Source: Halopseudomonas nanhaiensis | GTDB taxonomy: Bacteria > Pseudomonadota > Gammaproteobacteria > Pseudomonadales > Pseudomonadaceae | Direction of reading: 5' to 3' | Assembly (NCBI RefSeq): GCF_020025155.1 | Contig: NZ_CP073751.1 | Coordinates: 1,178,001-1,242,000 of the forward strand | DNA length: 64,000 nt | Shown here: positions 30,599 to 38,906 of the stretch, one piece after another | How positions within the stretch are numbered: position 1 is the first letter of the stretch | Layout: each line of letters starts with the position of its first letter | The notes under the pieces: model-generated | Database searches by the model: none | What the model saw: the letters and a program-made list of their open reading frames with translations, nothing else | What the model was told of the DNA's origin: nothing | Program-made: the position numbers and the translations under genes

Positions 30599-31216
30599 TC
30601 AGACGGTAGGCCCTGCGCCATCTGCCTCGCGCACCGCACGATATCGGGCCAGATCAATCGGCTCGTCGACATCCCAGAGCGTGGGCCCTGTCCATAGCGA
30701 CAACCCGGCCTCTTCCAGCCGCTGCCGGCTATCGTTCAGCACCTGATCATGACTCCAGGTCATGTCATGAAACGGTGCAGGATGGGTCTGGCGCTGGCCG
30801 ATCAGTACGTAGCCGCCGTCTTCACTGGGCAGTATCGCGACGTCATGATCGGTCAGGGCCCGCTCGGCCTGTTGCAGATGTTGTATCTGTAGCTCCGGGC
30901 AGTCGGTGCCGATCAGCAAGGCGCCAGCGGGGTGCTCTTCGAAAGCCGCCTGCATGCGCGCGCCCAGATCGGCTCCACGCTGCACGCGCAGCGTAAGCGG
31001 GTAGCGCCTCGCTGCCTCGGCAAACAATGGCGCGTCAGTGTCCGGGGCGCAGTAGAGAACACGCTGGCCCGGCCAGGCCGCGGTCTGGGCCAGGGTTCTG
31101 TCAAACAGCTCGATGTACAAGTCCCGCGCGCCCTCCGCGCCCAGCTCCGGTATCAGTCGGGTCTTGACGGTTCCGGCGACTGGCGCCTTGGCGAATATCA
31201 ACAGCGGGCGGCTCAT
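30599..31216 (-). CDS. TIGR04282-family glycosyltransferase (arsenosugar-biosynthesis associated)
   Basis: A 205-residue nucleotidyl/glycosyl-transferase-A-fold protein. It starts MSRPLLIFAKAPVAGTVKTRL, the signature N-terminus of the family annotated as arsenosugar biosynthesis glycosyltransferase. The metal-binding LIGTDCPEL and the LPSEDGGYVLIG strand follow. The ATG at 31216 overlaps the previous stop (ATGA), so the upstream 53-codon extension is not used. It is the last gene of the coupled operon. The biochemical role is inferred from family naming and from ArsS nearby. Confidence 0.87.
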   Translation of the reverse strand: MSRPLLIFAKAPVAGTVKTRLIPELGAEGARDLYIELFDRTLAQTAAWPGQRVLYCAPDTDAPLFAEAARRYPLTLRVQRGADLGARMQAAFEEHPAGALLIGTDCPELQIQHLQQAERALTDHDVAILPSEDGGYVLIGQRQTHPAPFHDMTWSHDQVLNDSRQRLEEAGLSLWTGPTLWDVDEPIDLARYRAVREADGAGPTV

Positions 31217-31917
31217 GTCTGCTCCGATCGGCCGGGATAGTAGAGCCGCACGAGGCGGTCGGGCGAAACGCCCAGCCAATAGAGCAGTCGCAGCCACCAC
31301 ATCAGTACGATGGTGCGGCCAATGCCTTTCTCGATCCACCGCCGGCTCGAGGTCACCACCTTCGCGTCCAGGCACGCAGGCGGGGTCAGGTAGCGCAGCC
31401 TGCGTGTGAACTGGATGTCTTCCATCAGGGGGATGTTGCGGAAGCCTCCGAAGTCGCGGAACACCTGAGTGAGCATGAAGATGCCCTGGTCACCGGTGCA
31501 GATACGCGTGACTCGAGAGCGTTTGTTGATCATCCAGGCGACCAGATCCAGCCGTCGATTGCGCGGCTCGAAGCACAGATCGAACCGGCCCCACAGGTGT
31601 GTTTCATCAGCCAGAGCCTGGCGTATGAGCGCGAGGAAGCCGGATGGTAACAGCGTATCCGCGTGGAGAAAGAGCAGGGCGTCACCGGTCGCGAGTTCAG
31701 CGCCGGCGTTCATCTGACGCGCCCGACCGGGTGCGGTGACGCGCAGATGATCGACGAGCGGCGCGGCGATGTCGCGCGTCCGGTCGGTACTGCCGCCGTC
31801 GACCACGATAATTTCAACATCGTCACGCCAATGCTGGAGCCCGCTCAGGGTGCGTTGCAGCGTATCCTGCTCGTTCAGCGTAGGAATGATCACCGACAGC
31901 CTCAATCCAGCCTCCAC
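31213..31917 (-). CDS. TIGR04283-family glycosyltransferase (arsenosugar-biosynthesis associated)
   Basis: A GT2-type glycosyltransferase of 234 residues. It has the N-terminal LSVIIPTLNEQDTL strand, the VVDGGSTDRT motif, the DxD-like LLFLHADTLLPSGF, and an acceptor-site LMEDIQFTRRL, followed by a C-terminal hydrophobic helix (IVLMWWLRLLYWLGV). It overlaps the fusion gene upstream by 16 bases and the TIGR04282 gene downstream by 4 bases. TIGR04282 and TIGR04283 genes often occur together; in this locus they sit with arsS. Confidence 0.88.
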   Translation of the reverse strand: MEAGLRLSVIIPTLNEQDTLQRTLSGLQHWRDDVEIIVVDGGSTDRTRDIAAPLVDHLRVTAPGRARQMNAGAELATGDALLFLHADTLLPSGFLALIRQALADETHLWGRFDLCFEPRNRRLDLVAWMINKRSRVTRICTGDQGIFMLTQVFRDFGGFRNIPLMEDIQFTRRLRYLTPPACLDAKVVTSSRRWIEKGIGRTIVLMWWLRLLYWLGVSPDRLVRLYYPGRSEQT

Positions 31918-34043
31918 CTGTGAAAGCGTGCAACCCAGCGCAGCAGTCCCTCGGGCGCATGGGCCTTTTTCCAGTTTCCAGCCGCGTACTTGTTCGCTTC
32001 GGCCATCGTCGGGTAACTGTGCACGGTCCCCAGCACCTTGTTCAACCCCAGATTATGTTTCATCGCCAGCACGTATTCGGCGATCAGTTCACCTGCATGT
32101 TCGCCGACGATGGTCACGCCGAGGATACGATCCTTGCCCGGCACGGTGAGCACCTTGACGAAGCCGGTACGCGCATCCTCGGCGATGGCCCGGTCCAGCT
32201 CGGACAGCTCGTATCGGGTCAGCTCGTAGGCAATGTTTCTGGCATTGGCCTCGGTCTCGGAGAGCCCCACCCGGGCGATCTCCGGATCTGTAAAGATGGC
32301 ATGGGGCAGTACGCGGTAATCGACGCGGAAACGTTTGAACGGCCCGAACAACGCGTTGACTGCGGCATACCAGGCCTGGTGGCTGGCAGCGTGGGTAAGC
32401 TGATAGGGGCCGGTTACGTCGCCCACCGCATAGATATTCGGGAAGCGCGTCGCCAGGTAGTCATCTGTCTCCAGCGTCCCGTCATCGCGTAGCGCAAGAT
32501 CGAGGGTTTGCGCACCGAATCCGTCGGTGTTCGAGGCTCGCCCGGTGGCTACCAGCACTGCGTCGAAGTCACGGGTCAGGCACTGGTCCGTCTGCAGGTC
32601 GCGCAGCGTCACCTGCTGCACGCCATCGACCCGGTGGAAACCTTGCGGGTCGTGGCGCAAAAGCACCTCGACGCCGTCTTCGCGCATGGACGCGATGACC
32701 AGTTCACTCACTTCCGGGTCTTCGCTGGGTAGCAACCGATCACCGCGCTGAATCTGCAGCACCGTGCAGCCCAGCCGCTGGAAAGCCTGGGCCAGCTCGC
32801 AGCCGATCAGCCCGCCGCCGATGACCAGCAGCCGCTCCGGCCGTTCGCGCAGATTCCAGATCGTCTCGGAGGTATACAGGGCCATCTCGTTCAGGCCCGG
32901 GATCGGCGGAACCTTGGGCCTGCCACCGGTAGCGACGATGATGTTGCGGGTGGTGAGCGTGCGGTCACCCACCTGCACGGCCCAGGGCGAGATGATCGTC
33001 GCGGTATCCTTGAACACTTCCACGCCCAGTTCGGTGTACCGCTCGACCGAATCATGCGGTGCGATCTCGGCCACGGTTGCCTGCACCCGCTCCATGACCC
33101 TCGGGAAATCCACCTCGGCTGAGGCGTGACTGTACCCCAGCCGATGGGCGCGCCTGACGTCGGCGGCCAGGCGCGCCGATCGGATCAGCGTTTTTGACGG
33201 CACACATCCGGTATTGAGGCAGTCTCCGCCCATCTCGTTCTTTTCCACCAGGCTGACCTGCGCCTTCACGGCAGCGGCAATATAGGCGCTCACCAGTCCG
33301 CCACTGCCTGCTCCGATCACCACCAGATTGCGGTCGAAACGCTTCGGCTTGTCCCACCCCTTGTAGACCCGCCGGGCCTTGACCCATTCGAGGATCTTGC
33401 GTGCCACCAGCGGAAACAGGCCGAGCAGAACGAAGGCGCCGATCAGGCCGGGCGACAGAATGCCGCCCAGCGTTTCCACCTGCGCCAGTTCGCGGCCGGC
33501 GTTCACGTAGACCAGCGTGCCCGGCAGCATCCCCAGCTGGCTGACCCACCAGAAGGTACGCACGCGTATACGTGTCAGGCCCATCACCAGATTGATGATG
33601 AAGAACGGAAACGCCGGCACCAGCCGCAGCGCGAAGAGATAGAAGGCGCCGTCGCGCTCTATGCCGCGATCAATCGGTTCGATCTGGCGCCCGAAGCGTT
33701 TGGCTACCCAGTCGCGCAGGAAAAACCGGCTGATCAGCATCGCCAGCGTCGCGCCCGCGGCCGAAGCGAAGGAGACCAGCAGCAGCCCCCAGCCCAGCCC
33801 GAACAGCGCGCCCCCGACCAGCGTCATCACCGCTGCGCCGGGCAGCGAGAGCGCGGTGACCAGCACGTAGATCGCCACAAAGGCCCCTGCAGCGGTCAAC
33901 GGCTGCGCCGCCACCCATTGCTCGAGTGAGCTCTGGTGCGCCTTGAGCGCTTCCAGGCTCAGGTACTGATGCAGATCGAAGATGACGAACGCTGCAATGA
34001 GCGCGGCTAACGCCAGCAAGGCTATCCAGCGGGTGGCTTTCAC
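31902..34043 (-). CDS. TVP38/TMEM64 (VTT) membrane domain fused to pyridine nucleotide-disulfide oxidoreductase
   Basis: A 713-residue fusion. Residues 1-225 form a VTT/TVP38 membrane domain with the family motif (FALRLVPAFPFFIINLVMGL). Residues about 236-713 form a flavin disulfide reductase with FAD motif VVIGAGSGGLVSA, redox pair C275 and C280 in GGDCLNTGCVPSK, an NAD motif LLVIGGGLIGCELAQAF, YAVGDVTG, and the C-terminal dimerisation domain with HSYPTMAEA. Mercuric reductase's C-terminal vicinal cysteines are absent, so MerA is unlikely. GTG at 34043 is chosen: it overlaps the previous stop (GTGA) and follows GGAGGA. The substrate is unknown; a membrane-linked reductase role is inferred. 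Confidence 0.88.
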   Translation of the reverse strand: MKATRWIALLALAALIAAFVIFDLHQYLSLEALKAHQSSLEQWVAAQPLTAAGAFVAIYVLVTALSLPGAAVMTLVGGALFGLGWGLLLVSFASAAGATLAMLISRFFLRDWVAKRFGRQIEPIDRGIERDGAFYLFALRLVPAFPFFIINLVMGLTRIRVRTFWWVSQLGMLPGTLVYVNAGRELAQVETLGGILSPGLIGAFVLLGLFPLVARKILEWVKARRVYKGWDKPKRFDRNLVVIGAGSGGLVSAYIAAAVKAQVSLVEKNEMGGDCLNTGCVPSKTLIRSARLAADVRRAHRLGYSHASAEVDFPRVMERVQATVAEIAPHDSVERYTELGVEVFKDTATIISPWAVQVGDRTLTTRNIIVATGGRPKVPPIPGLNEMALYTSETIWNLRERPERLLVIGGGLIGCELAQAFQRLGCTVLQIQRGDRLLPSEDPEVSELVIASMREDGVEVLLRHDPQGFHRVDGVQQVTLRDLQTDQCLTRDFDAVLVATGRASNTDGFGAQTLDLALRDDGTLETDDYLATRFPNIYAVGDVTGPYQLTHAASHQAWYAAVNALFGPFKRFRVDYRVLPHAIFTDPEIARVGLSETEANARNIAYELTRYELSELDRAIAEDARTGFVKVLTVPGKDRILGVTIVGEHAGELIAEYVLAMKHNLGLNKVLGTVHSYPTMAEANKYAAGNWKKAHAPEGLLRWVARFHRWRLD

Positions 34044-35005
34044 AGATTCAGATCCTCCATGGAACACAGGGTACTTGCGAGTCGAAAGCCTCCGGACAGA
34101 GCCGCTTCGGGTGCCGAATCGGCGCCGTGCAGGATACGCTCACGATATGACAGTTGTGCGGGCGATCCGGCAGGCCACTGCGAATCGAAATCCACCATGA
34201 AGGCCTGATGATCGTAGTTGAGCGGGAGGGCCTCGACTACCAGCCCTTCGAATACTGTCCGATACAAGGCGCTGGCATGCGCGTGAGTACTGATGCGCGT
34301 CACCACTCCGTAGCGTCCGTTATTGAAGTTGGGCAGTCCCGTCGCGCCATTGTTGATCACCACGCCGTGCTCGAGTTGCAGAGCGGCCGCGGCGCAGGTG
34401 TGGCTGGTGGCGAGGACGCTCAGGTCGGATCCGGCAAGCCAGGCATCCAGCTCGCGGCGGCGCTCAGGCTGTTGCAACGCCGTGCGATCACAGCCCCAGC
34501 CAGCCAAAGAGTGTTCATCGCCATGGGTAATGGCGATGCGGTGTCCTGCCACATCGACCAGCGCGGTGGCAGGGCGGCCGGCCAATGTGTCACGCATCCC
34601 CGGCAAACCGGATACCGTGCGCGCCAGGCTGGCGTGAATCTGGTTCGACCAGTCCACGGTGTCGTCCGGCACGTCGTCCGGATAGGCGCAGCCACAGCCG
34701 GCGTCACCGGGCTCGCTGCGCCCGAGCTCGGTTTCCACGTTCCCGCGCAGGACGGTATGCCCGCCAAGCCCGGCTTCGATCTCGGTGAATATCGCTGCGG
34801 AGCAATCGAACCAATGCGCATCGCCATTGAACACAACCCGTGCTGCCGGTTCGCTGGTCAATCGTCGCTGCAACGCGGTCAGGGCCTGTCGGTTGCCGTA
34901 CAGCCCGCCAACCACATAGAGGGTGTCACAGCCAAATAGCGGACTGCCTGTGAAACTGTCCGCCGGCAGACGGTAGTCCAGGGGGCACTCACGACCCGCC
35001 CTCAT
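34040..35005 (-). CDS. Metallophosphoesterase-like protein with altered motif I
   Basis: A 321-residue calcineurin-fold protein. Later motifs are recognisable: FNGDAHWFD (GD at 61-62), LRGNVE (88-91), ITHGDEH (H161) and TSHTC (H202). The first motif, normally DxHGN, reads GLYGN (G34, Y36), so both usual metal ligands there are replaced. It may bind a single metal or act on an unusual substrate. It overlaps the symporter (ATGA) and the fusion gene (GTGA), so it is locked into the operon. The specific function is unknown. Confidence 0.78.
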   Translation of the reverse strand: MRAGRECPLDYRLPADSFTGSPLFGCDTLYVVGGLYGNRQALTALQRRLTSEPAARVVFNGDAHWFDCSAAIFTEIEAGLGGHTVLRGNVETELGRSEPGDAGCGCAYPDDVPDDTVDWSNQIHASLARTVSGLPGMRDTLAGRPATALVDVAGHRIAITHGDEHSLAGWGCDRTALQQPERRRELDAWLAGSDLSVLATSHTCAAAALQLEHGVVINNGATGLPNFNNGRYGVVTRISTHAHASALYRTVFEGLVVEALPLNYDHQAFMVDFDSQWPAGSPAQLSYRERILHGADSAPEAALSGGFRLASTLCSMEDLNL

Positions 35006-36378
35006 CGGCGCGCCATCCCGCCGGCAAGCAGATAAAGCCCCGTGCAGAGCAGCAGACCGTAGAGGTTGGTGCCGAGGAGCAGCGCATACTTGCCATCGCC
35101 AATGGCCCAGCTGTCAGGAATCCAGTTCAGGGTCAGGGCGACGCCAAGCGCCAGACCAGTCCAGAAACTCAGGTGAAACGCAGTTGCCGTCGGACGAACG
35201 AGTCCGTGCAGCACGAACGCCGGAGCCAGACCCATGACCATGGTGCCGCTGATCGTCGTGGCCTTGAGAATATCGGTCCCGGCGAGCATGGGCAGGTTGC
35301 CGAGCAGGGCGAACACCGCCATCGCGGCCATGCCCAGCCCCACTGCACGGGTCCCCAGATCGCGGCCCGCTAGTGCCGGAAGCTCACGTCCGGTCAGGCG
35401 TGCCAGGCTGGAGAAGGTCGAGTCCAGGGTCGAGCCGGCTGCGGAAATCATCACGATGGTCATCACCAGCAGCGCACCGATGCCCAGTGAGCGGGCCAGC
35501 GCGGCAGGCACGTTGGACGATGCGCCGACCCCGACAAGGTCTGCATGAACACCGATCAGACTGAATGCCAGGATGGCGAAGAAGCCCAGCACGCCGGCGA
35601 TGGTGAAGGCGCGCAGCATACTGCGTTCCTGGCTGATGAAGCCGCGATCGGTCAGCACCGGGTCATGGAACGGGTAGCTGACCAGTTGCAGGCAGGCGAC
35701 CAGCAACAGATCCACGCCTGCATCGAGTGCCCAGGAGCTGGTGCTGGTCAGCTCTGCTGGGGAGTGCTGCGGCAATACCAGCCACAACACACACACCAGC
35801 GCCAGGACAAAAATGCCCGCCTGCGCGGCATCGGTGAGAATCGAGCTGCGCAGACCGCCGCGCAGGCTGTAGGCGAGCGTGACGGCAGTGAACAGCAGCG
35901 CGGAGATGACGAAGGGTGCAGTGCCGGGCTCGCCGTAGTACCCGCCGACCACGGCCGTGTTGCTCCACACCTCGTTGAACAAGCGAATCAGGATAGCGGC
36001 GGAGAAGGCCAGGGCGGCTGCACGGCCGTAGTTGCTGGTGAGAAAGCTGACCAGACTGGTGGCAGCGAAGCGCCGGCGCAGGCGGTAGATGACCAGGCCG
36101 CATAGCGGTATCGAGAGCCAGTAAGTGGCATAGGCCAGCCCGCCGACGAGGCCGAACTCGGCGCCCAGGTTCGCCGCATTGGTCACCGATTTGGCGAAGA
36201 TCCAGCTGATGAAGATGCTCGTGGTCAGCAGCCACGGCGACGCGCTGCGGCCCTGGCTATCTTCGCCGTTGAAAAAGCCGCCGGCGGTCACCGTACGTGG
36301 TGACAGCCAATACATCAGCCCGCCATAGGCAAGCAGAAACCCCCAGAAAAACACGCCCAGCGAACCGGACATTCCCAT
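35002..36378 (-). CDS. Sodium:solute symporter (SSS/SLC5 family)
   Basis: A 458-residue integral membrane protein with about 12-13 hydrophobic segments and the SSS-type layout, including FISWIFAKSVTNAANLGAEFG near helix 2 and AYSLRGGLRSSILTDAAQAGIF, the family signature around the Na+ site. The substrate could be an organic solute or an arsenosugar-related compound; that is inference from the ArsS and glycosyltransferase neighbours. It overlaps the metallophosphoesterase gene by four bases. Its start region abuts the REP array that separates it from arsS. Confidence 0.85.
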   Translation of the reverse strand: MGMSGSLGVFFWGFLLAYGGLMYWLSPRTVTAGGFFNGEDSQGRSASPWLLTTSIFISWIFAKSVTNAANLGAEFGLVGGLAYATYWLSIPLCGLVIYRLRRRFAATSLVSFLTSNYGRAAALAFSAAILIRLFNEVWSNTAVVGGYYGEPGTAPFVISALLFTAVTLAYSLRGGLRSSILTDAAQAGIFVLALVCVLWLVLPQHSPAELTSTSSWALDAGVDLLLVACLQLVSYPFHDPVLTDRGFISQERSMLRAFTIAGVLGFFAILAFSLIGVHADLVGVGASSNVPAALARSLGIGALLVMTIVMISAAGSTLDSTFSSLARLTGRELPALAGRDLGTRAVGLGMAAMAVFALLGNLPMLAGTDILKATTISGTMVMGLAPAFVLHGLVRPTATAFHLSFWTGLALGVALTLNWIPDSWAIGDGKYALLLGTNLYGLLLCTGLYLLAGGMARR

Positions 36379-36433
36379 ACCTCATCCCCTGATTTCATTC
36401 CTTGGTTCACGCAGCCGTTTGCCTCGTGGCGTG

Positions 36434-36955
36434 CGGATTTCGCTTCGCGGTCATGCCCGCTCCTACATGACGATTCCCGGCTTGCTGCAGGAGCGCGCTT
36501 GAGCGCGAAAGCGGACGAGCAGACGACGCTGAGCTTAACCCCTTCGCGGTCATGCCCGCTCCTACACGATGGCGATTCCCGGGTTGCTGTAGGAGCGCGC
36601 TTGAGCGCGAAAGCAGACGAGCAGACGACGCTGAGCTCAACCCCTTCGCGGTCATGCCCGCTCCTACACGATGGCGATTCCCGGGTTGCTGTAGGAGCGC
36701 GCTTGAGCGCGAAAGCGGACGAGCAGACGACGCTGAGCTTAACCCCTTCGCGGTCATGCCCGCTCCTACACGATGGCGATTCCCGGGTTGCTGTAGGAGC
36801 GCGCTTGAGCGCGAAAGCAGACGAGCAGACGACGCTGAGCTCAACCCCTTCGCGGTCATGCCCGCTCCTACACGATGGCGATTAGCGGCTTGCTGTAGGA
36901 GCGCGCTTGAGCGCGAAAGCGGACGAGCAGACGACTCATAGCTCAAGTCCTTCGC
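36434..36955. repeat. Tandem REP array, 102-bp period (5 copies)
   Basis: TTCGCGGTCATGCCCGCTCC occurs at 36444, 36543, 36645, 36747 and 36849, each time followed by an inverted GTAGGAGCGCGCTTGAGCGC arm. The period is 99 then 102, 102, 102. It fills the 611-base gap between the symporter and arsS. Because 102 is a multiple of three, long repetitive ORFs appear on both strands; these are artefacts. Copies alternate in small differences (AGCTTAA/AGCTCAA), suggesting a 204-bp higher-order unit. Confidence 0.93.
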
Positions 36956-36989
36956 AATCCTTCCCGGCCCTACCAATCCGCGCTTCGCG

Positions 36990-37952
36990 CTATCCCAATG
37001 CACCCCCGCAGCTGGAACCCTGTCCGGCCGTACAGGCAAAACAGTGATCGCGCGTCGCAATCGGACGGCCTTCCACGCGTGCCGTGAGCAGGTCGCGCAG
37101 ATGGCTTCGGTCGCTGGTGATCAGTGGTGCCGGCAGGTCGAGCATCTGATTGAAGTCGCAATCATACAGGTAGCCCTGCCAGTCCACGCTGACCTGCGAA
37201 CGGCACATCAATCCTGGCACGTTGGCTTCGCTGAAGTTGTCACGCAGCAGCTGCATGTAGCCGTTGAACTGGCCCTTGCTGACCAGTGTGCTACCGAAGC
37301 GGGCAATGGGCTGATTGGTAATGGTATGCAGCGCGTTGAAGCGGATGCCGAAGTCTTCCAGGAGATGCTGTTTATAGTCCGCCTCCAGTGCCTGCTGGGG
37401 TGGCGGCAGGCTTGGACCCTGCGGGTTGTAGACCAGGTTCAGCTCCAGACCACTGCCGTCCTGCCCATAGCCCAGGGCGTTGAGCTGCTGCAGGCCGGCG
37501 ATGCTGCGCTCGAACACGCCATCGCCGCGCTGCTTGTCGACGTTGTCCCGAGAGTAACAGGGCAGGGACGCCGACACGTGCACGCGCTGGTCGGCGAGAA
37601 AGTCGCCCACCCACGCGTAACCCGGTTCAGAAAGAATGGTCAGATTGCAGCGATCGATGACCTGCAGATCGGTCGCGCGCGCATGCCTGACGATATCGCG
37701 AAACCGAGGGTGCATCTCCGGCGCGCCGCCGGTGAGATCCAGTGTACCGACCGGGTGGGCATCGATAACCGCGAACAGCGCTTCTATGACCGCGTCGGTC
37801 ATGGCCTCGGTACGCGTCGGCCCGGCATTGACATGACAATGCAGGCAGCGCTGGTTGCACTGATAGGTGAGATTGACCTGCAGCACCTGCAGCGCCCCGC
37901 GCCGAATGGCGGGGAAGTCGAGTTCATTCAATAACGGCAGGGTGTCATGCAC
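36990..37952 (-). CDS. arsS: Arsenosugar biosynthesis radical SAM protein ArsS
   Basis: A 320-residue radical SAM enzyme. The [4Fe-4S] motif is C32-x3-C36-x2-C39 in TYQCNQRCLHCHVNAGP. LDLTGGAPEMHPRFR is the SAM-binding GGE-like motif. The C-terminal DUF3641-type region has MCRSQVSVDWQGYLYDCDFNQML and the CFACTAGQGSSCGG cluster. ArsS attaches the 5'-deoxyadenosyl group to dimethylated arsenic, the first committed step to arsenosugars. The start is GTG (37952) with AGGTGAG upstream. The C-terminus ends in a TAG codon with no sign of selenocysteine. No arsM is in the window. Confidence 0.92.
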   Translation of the reverse strand: MHDTLPLLNELDFPAIRRGALQVLQVNLTYQCNQRCLHCHVNAGPTRTEAMTDAVIEALFAVIDAHPVGTLDLTGGAPEMHPRFRDIVRHARATDLQVIDRCNLTILSEPGYAWVGDFLADQRVHVSASLPCYSRDNVDKQRGDGVFERSIAGLQQLNALGYGQDGSGLELNLVYNPQGPSLPPPQQALEADYKQHLLEDFGIRFNALHTITNQPIARFGSTLVSKGQFNGYMQLLRDNFSEANVPGLMCRSQVSVDWQGYLYDCDFNQMLDLPAPLITSDRSHLRDLLTARVEGRPIATRDHCFACTAGQGSSCGGALG

Positions 37953-37965
37953 GCGCTCACCTCAC

Positions 37966-38034
37966 TAGTCACTAAGTCCGTACAAGGGTTACATGAACTC
38001 GCCTAGTCATAAAGCACTCATATATGTCTGACTA
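37966..38034. promoter_or_regulatory. Repeated TAGTCA hexamers in the arsS/methyltransferase divergent region
   Basis: TAGTCA at 37966-37971 and 38004-38009, and its inverse TGACTA at 38029-38034, lie in the 114-base divergent spacer. They could be half-sites of an unknown regulator, or chance. Confidence 0.3.
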
Positions 38035-38066
38035 TGAGGGTAGATCACGCCAAGGGGAGACCGCGA

Positions 38067-38906
38067 ATGCGACCACTGATTTTAGCTGCCATGTTGTTGC
38101 TGCCTGCTGCAGGGATGGCACAGCAGCCCACCGTTCCGACGCCGCAGATGGATCCGGAACAACAACAGGCTCTGAAGAAAGCCATTGGCGCCCCGACTCG
38201 CTCTATCACCAACGTGGTTCGCGATGCCTACCGCAACCCCGAACACACCCTGGCTTTCTTCCAGGTGCAGCCCCAGCATACGGTGGTTGAAGCCTGGCCC
38301 GGCGAAGGCTGGTACACCGAGATCCTCGCCCCCTATCTGAAGGAAGACGGTCAACTGATCGCTGCTCATTTCGATCCGGACGCCGACTCGGATTACCAGC
38401 AGCGCTCCCTGAACGATTTCAAGCGCAAGCTGGAAGATCCTCGCGGCATCTACGACTCCGTCCGCGTGTCCGTACTGAACTACGATCCGGACACGCCGAT
38501 CGCCGAGCCGGAAAGCGCCGACCGGGTGCTTACCTTCCGCAATGTGCATAACTGGCTGGCCGCCGGTAAGGACGAAACGCGGCTGGTATTCAGCAAGTTC
38601 CATGCAGCGCTCAAGCCCGGCGGCATGCTAGGCGTCGTCGAGCACCGGGCGCTGCCCGACACCGATCTGCAACAGATGATCGAAACCGGCTACGTCACCG
38701 AGCAACTGGTGATCGAGTTGGCGGAAGAGGCAGGGTTCGAACAGGTGGGGAGCAGCCCGGTCAACGAAAACCCTCAGGATACGAAGGATCACCCTGAGGG
38801 CGTCTGGACCTTGCCGCCGACACTCAAGCTCGGCGACGAGAACCGCACTACCTACCTGGCTATTGGCGAAAGCGACCGCATGACGCTGTTGTTCAGAAAG
38901 AAGTGA
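38067..38906 (+). CDS. Exported class I SAM-dependent methyltransferase-like protein (COG4798 type)
   Basis: A 279-residue protein with a clear signal peptide (cleavage near AGMA-QQ, residue 17), followed by a Rossmann-type methyltransferase domain: VVEAWPGEGWYTEIL in place of the usual glycine-rich motif I, LTFRNVHNWL and LKPGGMLGVVEH. The ATG at 38067 has GGGGAGA upstream. It has no cysteine residues, so it is not the arsenite methyltransferase ArsM. A periplasmic methyltransferase is odd because SAM is cytoplasmic. It ends exactly where the convergent AraC gene ends. Confidence 0.82.
   Translation: MRPLILAAMLLLPAAGMAQQPTVPTPQMDPEQQQALKKAIGAPTRSITNVVRDAYRNPEHTLAFFQVQPQHTVVEAWPGEGWYTEILAPYLKEDGQLIAAHFDPDADSDYQQRSLNDFKRKLEDPRGIYDSVRVSVLNYDPDTPIAEPESADRVLTFRNVHNWLAAGKDETRLVFSKFHAALKPGGMLGVVEHRALPDTDLQQMIETGYVTEQLVIELAEEAGFEQVGSSPVNENPQDTKDHPEGVWTLPPTLKLGDENRTTYLAIGESDRMTLLFRKK

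Follow-up and report, generated by a model that had tools for sequence, protein, structure and literature searches.

Described systems and the operon

In oxo-arsenosugar biosynthesis, arsenic is adenosylated by a radical S-adenosylmethionine (SAM) enzyme; in Synechocystis, where SsArsM and SsArsS start the cyanobacterial arsenosugar pathway, SsArsS works together with SsArsM (according to the excerpted text of PMC12159101 and PMC8552651). An ArsS homolog is encoded in a 64,000-nucleotide stretch of the Halopseudomonas nanhaiensis genome (contig NZ_CP073751.1, positions 1,178,001 to 1,242,000), which is analyzed here and is called the window. On the minus strand, at window positions 30599-37952, arsS is followed by a 513-bp array resembling repetitive extragenic palindromic (REP) elements and then by five overlapping genes. 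These code for a divergent relative of the sodium:solute symporters (SSS), a phosphoesterase-like protein (PE), a TVP38 membrane domain fused to a disulfide reductase, and members of the families TIGR04283 and TIGR04282. This is a known pathway type, here with an uncharacterized transporter-PE cassette, and the assignment to an arsenosugar-type pathway is fairly safe. Our favored explanation, which we hold tentatively and at somewhat below an even chance, is that ArsS receives its substrate through the symporter-PE pair, in place of arsM.

The operon shares with SsArsM + SsArsS a member of the ArsS family that scores above the cut-off, and an arsM-like gene is present in the genome. In contrast to that system, arsM is outside the operon and is missing in 14 of the 15 relatives having both ArsS and PE, while the symporter, PE and the TVP38-reductase are added (comparison with the excerpts of PMC8552651 and PMC12159101). 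The arsinothricin cluster arsQML from Burkholderia gladioli also combines a radical SAM enzyme with a transporter and performs C-As bond chemistry. However, ArsL transfers an aminocarboxypropyl rather than an adenosyl group, ArsQ, a permease related to GntP, is a proposed exporter, and neither a PE nor a reductase fusion is described in the excerpted text (PMC8552651). In a Modicisalibacter genome, two genes are annotated as arsenosugar glycosyltransferases, without an experiment on them in the excerpt of that report (PMC13077682). In the open-licence PMC literature, as represented by its excerpts, no description of this symporter or of PE was found.

Co-occurrence and gene order

An earlier note on this DNA had proposed that the parts of the operon belong together, an idea that would fail if the downstream genes occurred with arsS no more often than by chance. 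The main sample consists of 96 relatives, 40 of which have ArsS above the cut-off. TIGR04283 (E <= 1e-25) is found in 40/40 ArsS genomes but only in 9/56 others, and the TVP38-reductase fusion (E <= 1e-150) in 39/40 compared with 7/56 (Fisher p about 1e-18 for each, uncorrected for kinship). This disposes of chance for these two families only; the search for TIGR04282 covered the genome of H. nanhaiensis. Among the nine TIGR04283 cases that lack ArsS, four have a second radical SAM protein (G060, G066, G078, G092), two are incomplete (G019, G070) and three are weak (G025, G051, G075). The second radical SAM family (model A4) occurs in four of the 96 genomes; none of these has ArsS, and each has both TIGR04283 and the reductase.

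PE is encoded in 17/96 genomes, and the symporter (>430 bits) is encoded in those same 17; one extra weak symporter match (213 bits) is from G060. Symporter and PE are an obligate pair. ArsS is present in 15/17 genomes with PE and in 25/79 without it. The two PE genomes without ArsS above the cut-off are G019, where the end of a 3.4-kb contig (L102) cuts off the symporter frame, and G078, which has the other radical SAM protein. In a phylum sample (n=299), PE was found in five genomes, two with ArsS (G000, G347) and three without (G078, G225, G260); a second radical SAM gene beside PE was checked only in G078 among these.

Gene order was analyzed in 51 loci fetched by PE similarity; nearly all of those with arsS, symporter, PE and reductase are from Pseudomonas or Halopseudomonas. 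Genes were called by a codon-usage script, with some wrong calls in G+C-rich loci (L077, L080, L115), and L077 was excluded from gene order. Homologs of the four genes occur together in 39/51 loci (BLAST >60 bits), or in 35/51 on a stricter count, a gene order that is beyond chance. In nine of the 39 loci, close homologs of TIGR04283 and/or TIGR04282 (>200 bits) come next. On a Burkholderia glumae plasmid, the one read of 47 Burkholderia records with PE, arsS directly precedes PE in a cluster with TIGR04282/83, 5'-methylthioadenosine (MTA) phosphorylase, CcdA and thioredoxin genes. In Adlercreutzia (L071, 8977-10977), PE and ArsS are fused in one 674-codon reading frame, which is followed by the symporter; the fusion shows only that both act together. 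Another ArsS, encoded separately on that contig, lies near two arsM-like genes. In Adlercreutzia L114 (8316-14216), a separate arsS was observed together with a 725-aa arsM-like protein, a P-loop protein (CobW-like by eye) and another arsM-like gene.

Because of the 40/40 and 39/40 co-occurrence, the obligate symporter-PE pair (17/17) and the PE-ArsS fusion with its adjacent symporter, we regard the operon as one functional unit, in agreement with the earlier proposal. The replacement of arsM proposed below is also favored by three loci from metagenome-assembled genomes (L074, L075, L078), where PE directly follows a gene of the major facilitator superfamily type (Pfam-tested in L074). In these, an MTA phosphorylase-arsS-reductase-TIGR04283 series lies some kilobases beyond PE.

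Proposed replacement of arsM

Proteins were considered ArsM-like at NF008823 scores of at least 161 bits, which are found in 22/96 genomes; none is above the cut-off of 263 bits, and general methyltransferases score at most 83 bits, so that the gap is clean. No arsM at this level is in the window, consistent with the earlier note, which had seen none nearby and had proposed to look elsewhere in the genome. There, one arsM-like gene was found (C1:1432578-1433273), about 216 kb from arsS and not in the operon. Its product scores 195-198 bits for NF008823 and 106.7 bits for NF038099 (cut-off 400), and the absence of arsM from this genome was rejected on finding it. That the methyl donor may be encoded elsewhere is thus adequate for this strain, but not as a general account, given the 14/15 ArsS+PE relatives that lack such a gene.

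The 40 ArsS genomes comprise one with PE and ArsM, 14 with PE only, 15 with ArsM only and 10 with neither (p = 9e-4); the respective counts within the genus are 1, 14, 4 and 3 (p = 0.02). The strain analyzed here is the single ArsS+PE genome of the 15 that carries an ArsM-like gene. Among 34 PE-bearing genomes reached via the PE-similarity loci (34 of 51 loci), an ArsM-like gene is missing in 28 and present in 6; these genomes, whose completeness is not stated, share some species with the first set (the ArsS sequences from L036 and L062 are identical to those from G022 and G001).

We propose a replacement because an ArsM-like gene accompanies ArsS in 1/15 genomes with PE compared with 15/25 without it, because 28 of the 34 PE genomes lack it, and because arsM can occupy the same operon slot: the order is arsS-arsM-reductase in L086 and arsS-symporter-PE-reductase here. 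The two ArsS modules of Adlercreutzia, one near arsM-like genes and the other with PE and symporter, also argue for this, as does the second radical SAM family. Its genes (L098 8736-9662, L099 7668-8612, L100 7589-8518, L076 1942-2895) are closest to the NCBIfam Rv1681 family, below the cut-off (three tested), and pair with arsM-like genes (L099, L100), with symporter and PE (L098, in the order reductase, second radical SAM, symporter, PE) or with a TVP38-PE arrangement.

Several points weigh against the replacement. PE and ArsM coexist in this strain, in 6/34 PE genomes and in one genome from the phylum sample (G225). In the near-identical loci L065 and L067, no more than about 4.6 kb separates the cluster's reductase from an arsM-like gene downstream. 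The 10/40 ArsS genomes with neither an ArsM-like gene nor PE must have another source. An ArsS tree of 53 rows, 52 of which have both traits assigned (L032 has no ArsM state), implies no fewer than 8 changes for PE and 9 for ArsM. Independent contrasts gave 3.1 opposite and 0.4 same of 6 (median p = 0.25), and, with the traits exchanged, 2.7 opposite and 0.3 same of 8 (median p = 0.5). Near contrasts in the predicted direction are G010 versus G022 and G026, as well as G030 versus G013 (low support, 92/68). The anticorrelation is thus suggestive, having the right direction without being significant after phylogenetic correction. Furthermore, the PE-ArsS fusion is from one genome, and we infer both the import direction and the substrate.

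The phosphoesterase-like protein

PE (34040..35005, minus strand, 321 aa) matches no Pfam or NCBIfam family at E <= 0.001. Its Metallophos_2 score of 16.9 bits is below the gathering score of 27 bits, and this domain matches 25/34 members of the PE family at E <= 1. The AlphaFold2 model (pLDDT 91.7, pTM 0.91) has the calcineurin fold of calcineurin-like phosphoesterases. The nearest folds are those of PH1004 and of the asymmetric Ap4A hydrolase SapH (3qfm, 3qfn, 1nnw, 2gju), with Z 20-21 and a root-mean-square deviation of 3.1-3.4 over 232-237 aligned residues, at 14-15% identity. VPS29 was considered as a relative, but sequence matches to solved structures were weak (E 0.27 and worse) and were not used.

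Metal ligand positions were set by motif register in an alignment of 34 rows, using what we take to be the canonical two-metal motif (DxH, GDxxD, GNH, H, GHxH). In contrast to SapH and PH1004, PE has GLY in place of DxH (Gly34, Tyr36) and Cys204 in place of the last His of GHxH, in 34/34 rows, so that three of the four site-1 ligands are lost. The site-2 ligands D62, N89, H161 and H202 are invariant (34/34). By this register, the two-metal ligand set of calcineurin-like phosphoesterases is incomplete in PE. An ordinary two-metal phosphatase was considered and set aside, as the site-1 ligands are missing; judged from its residues, PE is an altered and probably not an ordinary phosphoesterase. 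Three cysteines (C104, C106, C204) are conserved in 34/34 rows, and C7 in the 33/33 rows reaching that position. Distant PEs (L098, L107-L109) retain all four although H64 is replaced by Asn.

A more specific proposal, which is conceivable if doubtful, is that symporter and PE form an organoarsenical acquisition cassette, which would import methylated arsenic and so stand in for arsM. PE would then be a novel type of calcineurin-fold protein, in which cysteines have taken over the lost metal site and bind or reduce arsenic before it goes to a radical SAM enzyme (ArsS or the second family). The cysteines could also be structural, a point against our favored explanation.

The fold also bears on a downstream role of the pair, which we consider unlikely. 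PE would hydrolyze a phosphorylated or nucleotide-linked arsenosugar intermediate and the symporter would move the product or an intermediate, while ArsS would be supplied by an ArsM encoded elsewhere, or by methylated arsenic that enters the cell with no carrier dedicated to it. Asymmetric Ap4A hydrolases/phosphodiesterases are indeed among the nearest folds (SapH, Z about 20.5), the site-2 ligands are kept, and arsM-like genes are found in this genome and in six of 34 other PE genomes. Against this stand the ArsS+PE relatives without an ArsM-like gene (14/15), the loss of three site-1 ligands in every row (by the motif presumed above), and the Adlercreutzia PE-ArsS locus, where no TIGR04282/83 or reductase match above 60 bits is found within the fetched 19 kb.

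Protein families and the probable link to arsenic

ArsS (36990..37952, minus strand, GTG start, 320 aa) has the radical SAM motif CX3CX2C in CNQRCLHC and matches TIGR04167 with 454 bits (curated cut-off 300) over its full length (profile positions 2-303 of 303); the HpnH model is also among its profile matches (20.4 bits). The symporter (35002..36378, minus strand, 458 aa) is, from its profile scores, only a distant SSS relative. It has 24.5 bits for TIGR00813 (cut-off 184), and its family profile matches DUR3 with E 3.8e-5. Pfam SSF matches 7/10 members of the symporter family at E <= 1, the window protein not being among the seven. The fusion protein (31902..34043, minus strand) starts with GTG at 34043, and a second in-frame GTG is at 34067. 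Its TVP38 part has a VTT domain (82.4 bits, gathering score 33.9). The other half is an FAD-dependent pyridine-nucleotide-disulfide reductase with a CX4C motif (GGDCLNTGCVPSK); its nearest relatives are mercuric reductase and lipoamide dehydrogenase, with scores below the equivalog cut-offs of both (MerA 375 versus 454.45, lipoamide dehydrogenase 376.6 versus 408.8).

The GT2-type glycosyltransferase TIGR04283 (31213..31917, minus strand) and the TIGR04282 protein (30599..31216, minus strand) are both above their curated cut-offs (275.9 versus 182 and 192.7 versus 134 bits). The latter is related to CofC (46.7 bits, below that family's cut-off of 105) and to the nucleoside diphosphate (NDP)-sugar-transferase structure 3cgx (E 2e-16). 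For this reason, "glycosyltransferase" may be a misnomer for TIGR04282, which looks nucleotidyltransferase-like rather than evidently a glycosyltransferase.

It is rather improbable, if worth weighing, that ArsS of this operon type uses a non-arsenic substrate imported by the symporter, in which case homology alone would account for the arsenic names. Beyond what the names arsS and the two TIGR families imply, none of the six genes is an arsenic gene. ArsM is missing in 14/15 ArsS+PE genomes, and 10/40 ArsS genomes have neither ArsM nor PE; because of the latter, arsenic should be demonstrated and not assumed. However, ArsS is above its curated cut-off with a full-length match. The genes shared with this operon are also accompanied by arsM-like and arsC-like genes at locus L099, which groups TIGR04282-like, ArsM-like, radical SAM, ArsC-like, MTA-phosphorylase-like and TIGR04283-like genes (the last three and ArsM below curated cut-offs) and thereby supports the arsenic link. 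In the phylum sample, which is rich in one family, arsS and arsM-like genes are associated (both 66, arsS only 49, arsM only 18, neither 166; p = 1e-18).

A TIGR03169-type (Nterm_to_SelD) oxidoreductase recurs in arsS clusters (335 bits in L078; by BLAST in L052, L060, L065, L067, L086, L088 and L089). Selenium chemistry was considered for this reason, with no further evidence either way.

Operon layout and neighboring genes

Reading frames and junctions were read again, and the arrangement described in the earlier note (arsS, REP array, five joined genes) was reproduced, with all four minus-strand overlaps: ATGA at 35002-35005, GTGA at 34040-34043, 16 bases at 31902-31917 and ATGA at 31213-31216. 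The array, which resembles REP elements or bacterial interspersed mosaic elements (36443..36955, no strand assigned; 102 bp x 5.1 copies), separates arsS from the symporter gene. This gap is 611 bp here but 9-180 bp in 49 other loci (estimated from alignment starts; some loci are copies of one genome). Because the gaps of the relatives are short, the array is probably a local insertion or expansion that splits one operon.

That the neighborhood is mere conserved synteny of unrelated genes within Pseudomonadaceae, from which most full-length copies come, is very improbable and was rejected. PE recurs with ArsS, or with the symporter and the other radical SAM gene, in the Burkholderia plasmid, in metagenome-assembled genomes and in a second family within the order; an actinobacterium has it fused to ArsS; and the ArsS tree shows no fewer than 8 changes of PE.

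The divergent neighbor of arsS (38034-38903, plus strand) has a signal-like start and is weakly methyltransferase-like (PF08242, E 0.0018, below gathering); genes similar to it by eye adjoin arsS in several loci of the genus (L094, L095, L101). In some loci of the genus, a DUF1499 protein is encoded between arsS or PE and the reductase (L093 8060-8527, Pfam-tested; L096 8865-9311, L097 4457-4924 and L102 510-953, by eye), together with a MarR-like gene (by eye).

Proposed pathway

If the symporter-PE pair replaces arsM, the symporter would import an already methylated arsenical, e.g., dimethylarsinate. The TVP38-reductase, judged from its fold and CX4C motif, would keep the arsenical or thiol carriers reduced, and PE would bind or process the incoming compound and pass it to ArsS. 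ArsS would then add a 5'-deoxyadenosyl group, a chemistry known for characterized ArsS, and the separate arsM-like gene may also feed ArsS in this strain. Adenine would be removed by an MTA phosphorylase, presumably a housekeeping enzyme here; this step is proposed because the MTA phosphorylase gene is immediately before arsS in L074, L075, L078 and L082 (family-tested in L075). In the adenosylhopane pathway, radical SAM adenosylation by HpnH is followed by the nucleoside phosphorylase HpnG. This is the same logic as in arsS clusters with MTA phosphorylase, although the radical SAM family and the substrate are different, and the phosphorylase is absent from this operon. Finally, TIGR04282 may convert the resulting sugar phosphate into an activated nucleotide sugar, from which TIGR04283 may carry out the transfer to an acceptor (for example, glycerol or a glycerolipid), as suggested by their families.

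Significance

Cellular uptake of small organoarsenicals (arsenobetaine, arsenosugars) is largely unknown according to excerpts from a 2025 review, which mainly covers human and animal metabolism (PMC12608789). The symporter is conserved, accompanies ArsS and tends to occur without arsM, which makes it a concrete candidate for a bacterial importer. PE represents an unnamed protein family, for which a fold and conserved residues are now available for testing. If the replacement is true, two ways of feeding ArsS would be separated, making a methylated arsenical or scavenging it, and the cell may import organic arsenic rather than make it.

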